A stretch of DNA of 64,000 bases from Picrophilus oshimae DSM 9789. Lineage in GTDB: Archaea; Thermoplasmatota; Thermoplasmata; Thermoplasmatales; Thermoplasmataceae. Under the pieces are notes generated by a model. That model was not told where the DNA came from, did not search any database, and worked only from the letters and a program-made list of their open reading frames with translations. The stretch is taken from NCBI RefSeq assembly GCF_900176435.1, contig NZ_FWYE01000001.1, positions 1 to 64,000 of the forward strand, written 5' to 3'. Of this stretch, positions 46,581 to 51,909 are shown piece by piece. Position numbers and translations under genes: made by a program. Each line of letters starts with the position of its first letter. The first letter of the stretch is position 1.

Positions 46581-46643
46581 ATTAAACCATTATTGTTAAG
46601 TGTTATTTAAAGATTTTTTAATTATTAACCGGTTTCCAAAATA

Positions 46644-46652
46644 TTTATATAA
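46644..46652 (+). promoter_or_regulatory. TATA box for the leucine leader
   Basis: TTTATATAA centred about 26 bases before the ATG at 46674. This is the spacing for a leaderless transcript beginning at the leader-peptide start codon, and it supports translation of that small ORF. Confidence 0.7.
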
Positions 46653-46673
46653 TAGCTTGATAATATCTATCTA

Positions 46674-46721
46674 ATGAATGGTATGGTATTCACACAGCTC
46701 CTGTTCTTGTTGGCTGAGTGA
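46674..46721 (+). CDS. Leucine leader peptide (15 residues)
   Basis: ATG at 46674-46676, TGA at 46719-46721, reading MNGMVFTQLLFLLAE. Four of 15 residues are Leu, in the block CTC CTG TTC TTG TTG at 46698-46712, just before leuA. The TATA spacing makes the ATG the first codon of the mRNA. A second in-frame ATG is at 46683. The Leu codons lie in the loop of a hairpin (see the attenuator entry). Called as a leader peptide from position and content; not proven by experiment. Confidence 0.7.
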   Translation: MNGMVFTQLLFLLAE

Positions 46722-46755
46722 ATACTATCTCCATTTTTTTGGTTTTTGGAGGTAG
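46677..46755 (+). promoter_or_regulatory. Candidate leucine attenuator with two competing hairpins
   Basis: Hairpin A: GTATTCAC (46686-46693) with GTGAATAC (46718-46725), plus CAGC (46695-46698) with GCTG (46713-46716), A-A mismatch between them, a 14-base loop holding the Leu codons; outer arms AATGG (46677-46681) and CCATT (46731-46735) extend it. T7 (46734-46740) follows. Hairpin B: CTATCTCC (46725-46732) with GGAGGTAG (46748-46755), one G-U pair, hides the leuA Shine-Dalgarno GGAGGT. The arms overlap at 46725-46732, so A (extended) and B exclude each other. Confidence 0.65.
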
Positions 46756-46760
46756 TTATT

Positions 46761-47921
46761 ATGGGTTGTTTTGGAGGAGGCTATGCCAGATTTTTCCATA
46801 CGGGGATGCACAGCAGGCTTGGCTTAAACAGTGTAAAAAAGAGAATAAGGATATTTGACACAACTTTAAGGGACGGGGAGCAGTCACCCGGTGTTTCATT
46901 TAATATAAATCAAAAGATAAGGATTGCAGGTATGTTAGTTGACCTTGGCGTGGATATGATAGAAACAGGCTTCGCCGCAGTATCATCAGAGGAATCAATG
47001 GCAATAAGGAAGATACATGAAATGGATGGAAATTTCATATCATTAGCAAGATGCAATAGATATGACATAGACAGTGTAATAGATACTGGAATAGATAATA
47101 TACATCTATTTATCGCCACGTCGGATATTCATATAAAGTACAAGCTAAAAACATCCAGGGAAAACATAATGGAAAAAATCGTTGACTCGATAGATTATGC
47201 AAGATCTCATGGATTAAATGTTTTATTCTCACCTGAGGATGCAACAAGAACTGATATGAATTTTCTTATTGATGTTATAAATACAGCCATCTCATCAGGC
47301 GCATATGAAATAAACATACCTGACACAATAGGAATAATGAATCCAATATCCATGTACAATTTTATTCATGAAATAAAAAATAGAACGAAATCATGTATAA
47401 GTGTTCACTGTCACAATGATTTTGGCATGGCAACGGCGAATACCCTTGCAGCCATTATGGCAGGTGCAGATGGTGCCCAGGTAACAGTAAATGGTATAGG
47501 TGAAAGGGCCGGCAACGCAGCACTTGAGGAGGTTGTTCTATCAGTACATGCATTTACAGATTGCTCAACCGGAATAAACATGAGGATGATACCAAAAATC
47601 TCTAAATATGTATCAATGGCATCAAAAATGTATATACAAAAAAACAAGGCCATTGTTGGTGAGAATGCATTCTCACATGAATCAGGAATACATGTTCACG
47701 GCCTGATAAACAATCCGGAGACATATGAGCCAATAGATCCAGGCATCCTTGGTTTAAATAGAAGAATAGTGCTTGGAAAGCACTCCGGGACAACATCCTT
47801 AAAATATATTCTGGAAAGTCATGGCATAAAAAAGAGTGATGATGAGATCTCAGGGATATTAGTAAGGATAAAGGATATGAATATTTACGACGAAAATGAA
47901 ATATTAAAAATGGTGAGATGA
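46761..47921 (+). CDS. leuA: 2-isopropylmalate synthase family protein without the C-terminal regulatory domain
   Basis: 386 residues from the ATG at 46761, set by GGAGGT at 46748-46753. FDTTLRDGEQSPGVSF and the metal motif HCHNDFGMATANTLAAIMAGA are those of DRE-TIM acyltransferases. It stops after the linker region, so the leucine-binding domain (about 120 residues) of normal LeuA is absent. The first about 28 residues (MGCFGGGYARFF...) are not part of the family core. It makes 2-isopropylmalate from 2-ketoisovalerate and acetyl-CoA, by context; homocitrate or citramalate synthase is an alternative by sequence. Confidence 0.82.
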   Translation: MGCFGGGYARFFHTGMHSRLGLNSVKKRIRIFDTTLRDGEQSPGVSFNINQKIRIAGMLVDLGVDMIETGFAAVSSEESMAIRKIHEMDGNFISLARCNRYDIDSVIDTGIDNIHLFIATSDIHIKYKLKTSRENIMEKIVDSIDYARSHGLNVLFSPEDATRTDMNFLIDVINTAISSGAYEINIPDTIGIMNPISMYNFIHEIKNRTKSCISVHCHNDFGMATANTLAAIMAGADGAQVTVNGIGERAGNAALEEVVLSVHAFTDCSTGINMRMIPKISKYVSMASKMYIQKNKAIVGENAFSHESGIHVHGLINNPETYEPIDPGILGLNRRIVLGKHSGTTSLKYILESHGIKKSDDEISGILVRIKDMNIYDENEILKMVR

Positions 47922-49162
47922 TGAAAACGGCAGTTGAGAAGATATTTAGTGATAAATCAGGCAATGATGCAAGGGCCGGCGATTATGTTATAGCCAATTT
48001 AGATTATGTTATGGTAAATGATATAACAGGCCCAATAGCAATTGACGCATTCAATGAACTTGGTTATAAACCATTAAGCGATAGAATCGTTGTTATACCT
48101 GATCACTTTGTACCACCAAAGGATATAAATTCTGCAATACAGTATAAAAAGGTAAAGGATTTTGCATTAAAGCATAACACACATTTTTATGATCTTGGCC
48201 GTGGAGGTGTGTGCCATCAGGTCATGATGGAAAAGGGCTTTGCTGCACCGGGCAGATTAATAGCAGGCGCGGATTCACATACAAACACCTATGGTGCACT
48301 ATCATGCGTTTCAGTTGGCATAGGCAGCACGGAGGCCGGTGTCATCTTTGGAACAGGCAGGATGTGGTTTAAGGTTCCTGAGACAGATTTAATAAGAATA
48401 AATGGAAGACCAAAAAAGGGCGTCTATGGCAAGGATATAATATTAAACGTGCTTTCAAGGATAGGCAACGGTGGCTCTGCATACAAATGCATGGAGTTCA
48501 CAGGCAGCACCATTGATTACCTTGATATAAATGAAAGAATGACCATGGCAAATATGACCACTGAGGCCGGTGCAAAATGCTCATTTTTTAATGCCGATGA
48601 AAAAACACTGGATTATATAAGAAATAAAACAGATGATTACAAAATATATAAAGATGATGAAAACGCAGAGTACTCAAGGATAATAGATATAGATGCCTCG
48701 GAAATAGAGCCATCTGTTGCGATTCCAAACTCACCGGATAATGTAAGACCCGTATCAAAGGTATCTGAAAGAATTGACCAGGCATATATAGGTTCATGCA
48801 CCAATGGCAGGATAGAGGATATAAGAAGGGCGGCCCTGATATTAAAGGATAAAAAGATAGATAAAAATGTAAGGTTAATGGTCGTTCCCGCCAGTCAGGA
48901 GGTGTATAACCAGGCATTAAAAGAGGGGCTTGTTGATATTATAACTGATGCCGGTGGATATTTTGCAGGGACAACATGCGGTGCATGCCTTGGAGGCTAC
49001 ATGGGCGTTCTTGGCCCTGGAGAAACATGCATATCAACAACAAACAGAAACTTTATAGGAAGGATGGGTGACAGGACATCGAGAGTCTACCTGGCAAATC
49101 CAGAGGTTGTTGCCGCATCTGCAATAATGGGAAGAATAGCATCACCGGAGGAGATACAATGA
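47918..49162 (+). CDS. leuC: 3-isopropylmalate dehydratase large subunit
   Basis: 414 residues. The 4Fe-4S Cys ligands lie in IGSCTNGRIED and TTCGACLGGYMG; the N-terminal VMVNDITGPIAIDAF and DHFVPPKD blocks are typical. It isomerises 2- to 3-isopropylmalate with LeuD. The start overlaps leuA (ATG at 47918 or 47921; GGTGAG before). 3' end overlaps leuD by 4 bases. Confidence 0.92.
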   Translation: MMKTAVEKIFSDKSGNDARAGDYVIANLDYVMVNDITGPIAIDAFNELGYKPLSDRIVVIPDHFVPPKDINSAIQYKKVKDFALKHNTHFYDLGRGGVCHQVMMEKGFAAPGRLIAGADSHTNTYGALSCVSVGIGSTEAGVIFGTGRMWFKVPETDLIRINGRPKKGVYGKDIILNVLSRIGNGGSAYKCMEFTGSTIDYLDINERMTMANMTTEAGAKCSFFNADEKTLDYIRNKTDDYKIYKDDENAEYSRIIDIDASEIEPSVAIPNSPDNVRPVSKVSERIDQAYIGSCTNGRIEDIRRAALILKDKKIDKNVRLMVVPASQEVYNQALKEGLVDIITDAGGYFAGTTCGACLGGYMGVLGPGETCISTTNRNFIGRMGDRTSRVYLANPEVVAASAIMGRIASPEEIQ

Positions 49163-49632
49163 TAACAGGAAAAGCATGGATTCTTGGTGATAATATAGAT
49201 ACAGATCAGATAATACCTGCAAGGTATTTAAATACATCAGAGCCTGAAAAGCTGGCACCGCATTTTATGGAATACACAAATCCAGAACTGGCATCAATGA
49301 TAAATAAGGGAGATATTATAGTTGCTGGCAAAAACTTTGGTTCAGGTTCAAGCAGGGAGCATGCTGTTATAACAATAAAGGCGCTTGGCGTATCCTGTGT
49401 AATTGCCGAGAGTTTTGCAAGGATCTTTTTCAGGAATGCTATAAATAATGGTTTACTTCTCATAGAGGCAAAGGTAAACGCAAAAAATGGTTCAATAATA
49501 TCAATAGATATGGAAAACGGCATAATAAAAACAGAGGATTCATCATACAGGTTTAGAAGTTACCCTGATTTTATAATGAACATAGTAAATGCAGGCGGGT
49601 TAATAAACTATGTGAGGTCATCAAAATGGTAG
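49159..49632 (+). CDS. leuD: 3-isopropylmalate dehydratase small subunit
   Basis: 157 residues. DNIDTDQIIPARYL and GKNFGSGSSREHAVITIKALG identify the swivel subunit of the dehydratase. It works with LeuC. The start overlaps leuC by ATGA and the end overlaps leuB by 7 bases. Confidence 0.92.
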   Translation: MITGKAWILGDNIDTDQIIPARYLNTSEPEKLAPHFMEYTNPELASMINKGDIIVAGKNFGSGSSREHAVITIKALGVSCVIAESFARIFFRNAINNGLLLIEAKVNAKNGSIISIDMENGIIKTEDSSYRFRSYPDFIMNIVNAGGLINYVRSSKW

Positions 49633-50633
49633 ATGTTGCACTAATACCAGGGGACGGCATAGGAAGGGAGATCATGCCAGGCGTTGCGGCGGCAATTTCA
49701 TCAATAACCGGTATAAACTTTGTAACCTTTGATATATCATCAGAAAGATACATAAAAACAGGAATTATAATAAAGGACGACGAGCTTGAGGAATTAAAAA
49801 ATTACAGGGCAATATTATTTGGTGCAATAGGTGATCCAAGGGTAAGACCCGGTATAATGGAGCAGGGCGTGATATTAAGGCTCAGGAGGGAGCTTGAATT
49901 ATACATGAATATAAGGCCTGTAAGATCCTTCGATGATAAAATAAAAATAACAATATTAAGGGAGAATACGCAGGATTTTTACACAGATATAAGTGGAATA
50001 ATACCGGGCAAAAGATCATTTAATGTAAACGGTACAAGAATAGAAATAGATGGTTCCTCATGTGATGAGGTTTACTACACGATGGGCATGCTATCATACA
50101 GATACCTAAAGAAATTCTTTAACAAAGCATTTTCAATTTGTGATTCAACAGTTACTGTAACCGACAAGGCAAACGCTGTAAAAATGTACAATCTCTGGAG
50201 ATCAACGGCAATGGAAACCGCAATTGAAAAAAACATAAATATATCATTTGAGTATGCCGATGCACTTGCATATAATATGATATTAAATCCTAAAAAATAC
50301 AGGTATATCATTGCACCAAACCTTTATGGTGATATAATATCTGATATGGGGGCCGCACTTGTGGGCGGTCTTGGATATGCACCATCAGCAAACATTGGCG
50401 ATAAAAATGCCCTCTTTGAGCCTGTTCATGGCAGTGCACCTGATATTGCCGGAAGAGATATGGCAAATCCTGCCGCATCAATAATGGCAGGCTCAATGCT
50501 TCTTGAATACCTTGGCTACAGGGATGAATCAAGAATAATAAACGATATGGTAAGAAACCTTTACATTAATGGCGTATTTAATAGCGAAAGAACATCGAAG
50601 ATTATTGAAAGATTTATGACAATAACTAAATAA
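49626..50633 (+). CDS. leuB: 3-isopropylmalate dehydrogenase
   Basis: 335 residues. ALIPGDGIGREIMPG, LRENTQDFYTDISG, and GDIISDMGAALVGGLGYAPSANIG, FEPVHGSAPDIAGRDMANP are those of the isocitrate/isopropylmalate dehydrogenase family. By operon position it oxidises 3-isopropylmalate to the 2-oxo acid. An isocitrate or homoisocitrate use is less likely in this operon. Confidence 0.88.
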   Translation: MVDVALIPGDGIGREIMPGVAAAISSITGINFVTFDISSERYIKTGIIIKDDELEELKNYRAILFGAIGDPRVRPGIMEQGVILRLRRELELYMNIRPVRSFDDKIKITILRENTQDFYTDISGIIPGKRSFNVNGTRIEIDGSSCDEVYYTMGMLSYRYLKKFFNKAFSICDSTVTVTDKANAVKMYNLWRSTAMETAIEKNINISFEYADALAYNMILNPKKYRYIIAPNLYGDIISDMGAALVGGLGYAPSANIGDKNALFEPVHGSAPDIAGRDMANPAASIMAGSMLLEYLGYRDESRIINDMVRNLYINGVFNSERTSKIIERFMTITK

Positions 50634-51362: not shown

Positions 51363-51396
51363 AAAATATTAACTATATTTTTATTATGTGGTTTTA

Positions 51397-51909
51397 ATGT
51401 GGAATTACATAGATAATGTGTTTTACGCATATCCTGCTGAAAGACGTGTCATACAAAAGATGCTAAATGTCGGACTTAGCGTTAGATTAATAGACGGCGA
51501 GCCAAAGATCTTTTGTGATGACATAGAAATTAAGCCGAACGCCATTGCCAAGGCCTATCATGTCGACAGGCGCGTTGTTGTCAACATGCTGAAAAGGATT
51601 ATTGATGATGAGACACTGTACTCATTTTTCAGTAATTTAAAATCCATGGCAAATTTATCTGAGACCGGAAGCAGGCTGGGCATGGGTGTCATAGAGATCA
51701 CACCTGAGGATGCAAATAGGCCAGGAATAATCAGTGGTGTTATAAGAATAATATCAGATCATGGTATAAGCATAAGGCAGGTTGTAACCGATGATCCTGA
51801 TCTTATTGAGAACCCAAAGGCATTTATTATAACACAGGGGTTAATACCATCATCGCTTCTAAATGATATAAAGAGGGTTTCTGGTGTAAAGGCCATAACA
51901 ATTTTATAA
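51397..51909 (+). CDS. ACT-domain regulator of amino acid metabolism
   Basis: 170 residues from the ATG at 51397, preceded by a TATA-like ACTATATTTTTAT about 23 bases away. N-terminal winged-helix-like region (about 5-65, IAKAYHVDRRVVVNMLKRI) and a C-terminal ACT domain (about 90-165, GVIEITPEDANRPGIISGVIRIISDHGISIRQVV). This is the archaeal predicted regulator with ACT domain. Given its place after the leu operon, it could sense leucine or another branched-chain amino acid (inference). Confidence 0.75.
   Translation: MWNYIDNVFYAYPAERRVIQKMLNVGLSVRLIDGEPKIFCDDIEIKPNAIAKAYHVDRRVVVNMLKRIIDDETLYSFFSNLKSMANLSETGSRLGMGVIEITPEDANRPGIISGVIRIISDHGISIRQVVTDDPDLIENPKAFIITQGLIPSSLLNDIKRVSGVKAITIL

Follow-up and report, generated by a model that had tools for sequence, protein, structure and literature searches.

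A leucine-rich leader and competing RNA pairings ahead of the leu operon of Picrophilus oshimae: a probable ribosome-controlled attenuator in Thermoplasmatales

The leu operon of Picrophilus oshimae DSM 9789 is preceded by a short, leucine-rich reading frame and by two RNA pairings that compete for a common segment, one of which involves the Shine-Dalgarno (SD) sequence of leuA. This arrangement as a whole is best explained by a ribosome-controlled attenuator acting on the leu operon, and we consider that explanation probable. That the leader is controlled by ribosomes at all is very likely; the more specific proposal that starvation switches the operon on, with termination at two U tracts as the output, stands at about even chances. 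All coordinates refer to the window, i.e., the complete stretch of 64,000 nucleotides that was analysed (positions 1 to 64,000 of contig NZ_FWYE01000001.1).

The leu leader and its counterparts in related genomes

The leader and the genes that follow it consist of these elements, the parts of hairpin A and of its extension A' being taken from the computed fold:

46644 to 46652, plus strand: TATA box (TTTATATAA)
46674 to 46721, plus strand: leader ORF of 15 codons (MNGMVFTQLLFLLAE, then stop), with its ATG at 46674 and its TGA at 46719 to 46721
46676 to 46681, plus strand: extension A', 5' side at the leader start, pairing with 46731 to 46736
46683 to 46693, plus strand: region 1, 5' arm of hairpin A
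46695 to 46699, plus strand: inner stem of hairpin A, 5' side
46698 to 46712, plus strand: Leu codons of the leader, CTC CTG TTC TTG TTG
46712 to 46716, plus strand: inner stem of hairpin A, 3' side
46718 to 46728, plus strand: 3' arm of hairpin A, spanning the leader stop codon
46725 to 46732, plus strand: region 2 (CTATCTCC), complementary to the leuA SD
46731 to 46736, plus strand: extension A', 3' side
46734 to 46740, plus strand: U7 tract
46743 to 46747, plus strand: U5 tract, abutting the SD on its 5' side
46748 to 46755, plus strand: region 3, the leuA SD (GGAGGTAG), 3' arm of hairpin B
46761 to 47921, plus strand: leuA, 2-isopropylmalate synthase family
46769 to 46772, plus strand: second conserved U tract, inside leuA, 3' of the SD
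47918 to 49162, plus strand: leuC-like gene, dehydratase large subunit
49159 to 49632, plus strand: leuD-like gene, dehydratase small subunit
49626 to 50633, plus strand: leuB-like gene, dehydrogenase

The positions originally given for the TATA box, the ORF, the Leu codons, hairpin A, the T7 tract and the complementary segments were all correct. The first base of the TATA box precedes the leader ATG by 30 nt, and the ORF is followed by leuA and the leuC-, leuD- and leuB-like genes in this order. Within the window, 20 pairs of a TATA box and an ATG that opens a short ORF were counted; this combination alone is not rare, and the case therefore rests on conservation. In a Pfam search, LeuA (386 amino acids) gave no match to the LeuA regulatory (dimer) domain. 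The enzyme may thus lack feedback by leucine, and with a LeuA of this kind genetic control of the leu operon would be useful. A gene for a TrpY-family regulator, scoring just under the NCBIfam cut-off, is located downstream of the leu operon (51388 to 51909).

Among 117 genomes of the order, a search identified 17 with a close leuA orthologue. They belong to six genera (labelled g1, g2, g5, g7, g9 and g14), the relatives being examined as targeted stretches, and each of the 17 carries a Leu-rich short ORF ahead of leuA. The predicted peptides read MNSIMFIEQLFFLLLE, MNSITFIRQLYFLLLE, MNTIIFTQQLFFLLLQ and close variants in g5, MFNIVSNNANVLFLGLHSGH and MFGKVSNAATMLFFLGLQSGH in g2, VKEEMLTLVLHEVLLLNESTLSPVVL in g7, VNKVLTLLVPEFLLLGQSTLSPVVL in g9 and VLPTVTEEVSCVLLLHSGRHHPVP in g14. 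Leu is retained in all relatives while other codons vary; in the g5 leaders, four Leu residues are invariant and residue changes occur at 8 of the 16 codon positions. The original prediction of a leader peptide with Leu codons ahead of the leu operon is thereby borne out, and the ORF, its Leu codons and compensatory base changes all recur before leuA in related Thermoplasmatales, as had been suggested for a check. A covariance model of the leader returned one confident copy per genome, always ahead of leuA and in g1 and g5 only; two weak additional matches were inspected and are not leaders. Distant archaeal leuA loci outside the order, found by leuA similarity, have no Leu-rich leader that is clearly over background.

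In all 13 tabulated leaders of g1, g2 and g5, the TATA box starts 30–31 nt upstream of the leader ATG. Because of this spacing, the leu mRNA of these three genera is probably leaderless and starts at or beside the leader AUG, in agreement with the leaderless start that had been proposed. A TATA-like box is present about 60 nt upstream of the leader in g7 and g9, and since it lies so far ahead, these leaders probably carry a 5' UTR. The g7 and g9 leaders (L128 and L129) have a small hairpin (GTCATGGTTTGCCATGAC; GTCGTGCTACGACATGAC) at what is probably their 5' end, about 35 to 15 nt ahead of the leader GTG. In all six genera, the Leu run has its last codon 11–15 nt ahead of region 2 while the position of the stop codon varies, which suggests that the leader layout is aligned on the Leu codons.

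Competing pairings and the predicted influence of the leader ribosome

Three regions can be distinguished in the leader. Region 1 lies in the ORF, region 2 around or just past the stop codon, and region 3 comprises a U tract, the leuA SD and another U tract. Pairing of regions 1 and 2 would give hairpin A, pairing of regions 2 and 3 hairpin B. Hairpin A of the window has a predicted energy of -25 kcal/mol, and 3 of 200 shuffled sequences were as good. Covariation was assessed on an alignment of the g1 and g5 leaders. Four of the 11 pairs of hairpin A are changed on both sides in relatives, with a covariation score above those of all 500 shuffles; the counterpart of extension A', in which the leader AUG region pairs with UUCAU (AUGAA:UUCAU), is 97.8% paired; and hairpin B, the 5' segment of which begins six bases past the first base of the leader stop codon, shows 100% standard pairs in nine distinct sequences, including one double change. 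As read from the sequences, both hairpins are rebuilt with other bases in g2, g7, g9 and g14, for example with UGGUGA, UCACCA and UGGUGAG as regions 1, 2 and 3 of g9, or with ACACUAACCUU as region 2 and AAGGUGGUGU as region 3 of g2. The two competing pairings that had been proposed for the window alone are consequently a shared property of the group, although the minimum-energy fold of g1 and several g5 leaders keeps a trimmed hairpin A together with hairpin B, such that their exclusivity is partial there.

The influence of translation was modelled by folding 16 leaders with a ribosome placed at every codon, assuming a footprint that extends from the first base of the P-site codon 12 nt upstream and 15 nt downstream, values that stem from bacterial ribosomes. 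For a ribosome positioned at the first Leu codons, opening of the SD is predicted to cost about 5–16 kcal/mol in all 16 leaders, compared with at most about 3 kcal/mol, again in 16 of 16, once it has reached the last sense codon. For ribosome-free leaders, the folding predicts a mostly open SD in g1, g2, g5 and g14 (intermediate in the g2 leader L014) and an SD locked by hairpin B in g7 and g9, where hairpin A cannot compete. A ribosome at the first Leu codon locks the SD more strongly than in shuffled spacers in 10 of 10 leaders from the six genera (z = 1.2–4.2); a ribosome placed at the last Leu codon gives little or no excess over shuffles in g2. The whole segment from U tract to U tract differs less between the states than the SD alone. 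SD pairing is the strongest predicted effect and is conserved across the six genera. Far from being a side issue, hairpin B emerges from the modelling as the element that is controlled by the position of the Leu codons in every relative.

U tracts and the sign of regulation

Termination in archaea relies on U tracts and does not require a hairpin; in Methanococcus maripaludis, aCPSF1 needs at least two U4 tracts to bind efficiently (PMC8716108). A stretch of T4 or longer immediately 5' of the SD is present in 15 of 16 leuA genes and in 6 of 95 other SD genes that served as a control set from the same genomes. Such tracts flank the SD on both sides in 13 of the 16 leuA genes and in none of the 95 others (Fisher p ~2e-14); the relatives are not independent, but the arrangement is common to five genera. 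The second tract is missing in L006 and L007, the first in g14. With two U4+ tracts close together, these leaders resemble an archaeal aCPSF1 U-tract terminator. A 3:4 terminator hairpin was not apparent: there is no terminator-like site, and inspection by eye revealed no downstream segment complementary to region 3.

The analysis shows the conservation of the leader, its covariation, the competing pairings, the placement of the Leu codons and the enrichment of U tracts. From these elements we infer a course of events that links transcription start, stalling and termination to the sign of regulation. The mRNA would begin at or beside the AUG of the leader ORF, as the TATA spacing suggests. According to the folding, a ribosome halted on the Leu codons would cover region 1 and the loop and leave region 2 free, whereupon hairpin B would form and lock region 3; a ribosome reaching the stop codon would cover region 2 and then depart, such that hairpin A forms and region 3 is free, as predicted for four of the six genera. 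When leucine is ample, the free region 3 would serve as an archaeal terminator with two U tracts (aCPSF1/FttA), ending transcription before leuA. When charged tRNA-Leu is scarce, hairpin B would hide region 3 and RNA polymerase would escape. Translation of leuA would follow after the slow ribosome has advanced and opened hairpin B; hiding the SD would come at a cost, which the same ribosome would relieve by moving on. It has been proposed in the literature that ribosome coupling and aCPSF1/FttA termination are mutually exclusive (PMC8116511, PMC11616081).

The sign of regulation depends on what a free region 3 does. If it means termination, leuA would be off with ample leucine and on under starvation; if nothing more than the SD is exposed, the reverse would hold. 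We favour the termination reading on account of the conserved U tracts and of the physiology of a biosynthetic operon. The opposite sign belongs to a purely translational switch, in which hairpin B hides the leuA SD and either hairpin A or a ribosome at the end of the leader frees it. A stall on the Leu codons would then lower translation of leuA, and the signal would be arrest by abundant leucine or a need of leuA for active translation of the leader. Such a switch draws directly on the SD pairing, which occurs in all six genera and has the strongest predicted effect, and on g7 and g9, in which the SD is predicted to stay closed unless a ribosome occupies the last third of the leader. However, starvation would turn leuA off, against the purpose of a biosynthetic operon, the paired U tracts would be left unexplained, and between genera there is no conserved arrest motif other than Leu. 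We therefore regard a purely translational switch as unlikely, while taking it more seriously than the alternatives that follow.

In the original prediction, hairpin A and the adjoining T7 tract formed the terminator, and a ribosome on the Leu codons blocked it. Hairpin A is indeed conserved, and in the window a strong hairpin does adjoin T7, but a T7 tract beside the stem is special to the window's genome. In the relatives, an A-rich spacer of several bases separates the stem from a U4-5 tract, and what is conserved is this tract 5' of the SD together with the second tract 3' of it. Moreover, archaeal terminators need no hairpin (PMC8716108), and a ribosome at the stop codon would likewise prevent hairpin A. 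This form of termination is accordingly quite improbable. Finally, the inverted repeat could be a DNA operator for a repressor, with the ORF incidental, as the same genomes have conserved operator-like motifs and no leader at their cimA-like and trp genes, but its arms change in a compensatory fashion and differ between genera, and the conserved ORF frame, Leu codons and SD pairing would be superfluous for an operator, so that we rejected this highly implausible reading on the grounds of arm covariation and frame conservation.

Other amino acid operons and comparison with known systems

His-rich leaders (HHH or HHHH) precede the his operon in six genomes of the three genera g1, g2 and g5 (L169, L165, L166, L167, L162 and L164). 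The one in the window's own genome (L169, C2 near 202500) begins MEAWMVSGGVVCNSAFLSGAFMHHHSHQYKN, that of g5 MVEMVYIKNIVSKSVSMILGIHHHHRDIA. The his leader hairpin includes the His codons, which are paired with the leader start region, and in the g5 his leader a segment past the His codons pairs with the beginning of the first his gene. Leaders rich in Ile, Val and Leu are located before ilvB and the ilv operon in g7 (VSLTASTTELNFSVVGILQIIIGL, L174) and g9 (MRPNPTASNVILNTISGIIGLVIR, L175). A different, very conserved element, GGTTTATCTAACATCTGTGGCG, is found before ilvB in g1, g2 and g5 (L170, L171, L172, L173 and L176); it overlaps a short ORF that ends with R-F-I-stop or a similar sequence and has U tracts near the SD. 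No matching leader was present at the trp, cimA-like (leuA paralogue), homoserine dehydrogenase and prephenate dehydratase loci of the same genomes. The cimA-like paralogue is preceded by a conserved operator-like motif, TACGAAaTTAGTAaaaaTAATACGAAA (L112-L122, L126), and the trp operon by another around TCAATAATGCTTATATA, with no leader ORF (L177-L184).

With leaders before his and ilv and no clear leader at distant archaeal leuA loci, a lineage-specific set of attenuators appears likely. The wider proposal, that Thermoplasmatales-type archaea attenuate leu, his and ilv via leader peptides, with aCPSF1/FttA U-tract termination gated by an SD-masking RNA antiterminator, is in our estimate as probable as its negation. 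If true, an RNA antiterminator that gates U-tract termination and also masks the SD would be a form of attenuation undescribed in bacteria or archaea. A conserved archaeal attenuator, made of parts unlike the bacterial ones, would show that transcription-translation coupling serves regulation in archaea and would provide a natural and tunable system for examining how ribosomes affect aCPSF1/FttA termination; amino-acid-rich leaders would be a ready marker for locating more cases.

Rfam yielded no match above the gathering score at 46640 to 46760, two tRNAs being the sole matches in the window, and no description of leader-peptide attenuation in archaea was found in the literature searched, which covered a minority of the subscription journals. 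In bacteria, attenuation by a leader peptide is textbook knowledge; it requires that translation follow RNA polymerase closely. The ribosome-mediated leu, his and trp attenuators of bacteria combine a codon-rich short ORF, 1:2 versus 2:3 pairing and a 3:4 terminator hairpin. Like those of Proteobacteria, the archaeal leader has a short ORF rich in codons for the amino acid product and 1:2 versus 2:3 pairings that, as computed, are mutually exclusive and controlled by ribosome position (partially so in g1 and several g5 leaders). The regulatory codons are placed such that a waiting ribosome would leave region 2 free, and the stop codon such that a terminating ribosome would cover it. Unlike in Proteobacteria, neither a region 4 nor a 3:4 terminator hairpin was observed, the SD of the structural gene itself, set between two U tracts, takes the place of region 3, and the host is an archaeon with a probably leaderless start in three genera. 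In the erm and cat translational attenuators, the gene is switched on by a stalled ribosome that sits over the SD-pairing segment. There, too, the position of the leader ribosome decides whether the downstream SD is hidden, whereas folding predicts that an archaeal ribosome on the Leu codons leaves the SD-pairing segment free and the SD locked. The closest described leuA case is the LEU element of Actinobacteria, in which the Leu codons themselves pair with the leuA SD and a pseudoknot has been proposed (PMC1262725). It shares with the archaeal leader an ORF with a Leu run before leuA, pairing of the leuA SD and the lack of an obvious terminator hairpin, but in the archaeal case the SD-pairing segment lies 3' of the Leu codons and the Leu run itself is unpaired with the SD. 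Two U4+ tracts close together are also typical of archaeal aCPSF1/FttA terminators (PMC8716108, PMC11616081); unlike in the known examples, the leu tracts flank an SD within a leader and are putatively gated by RNA structure. Overall, we rate the leu leader as working like a ribosome-mediated attenuator that does without the terminator hairpin by which the bacterial family is defined.
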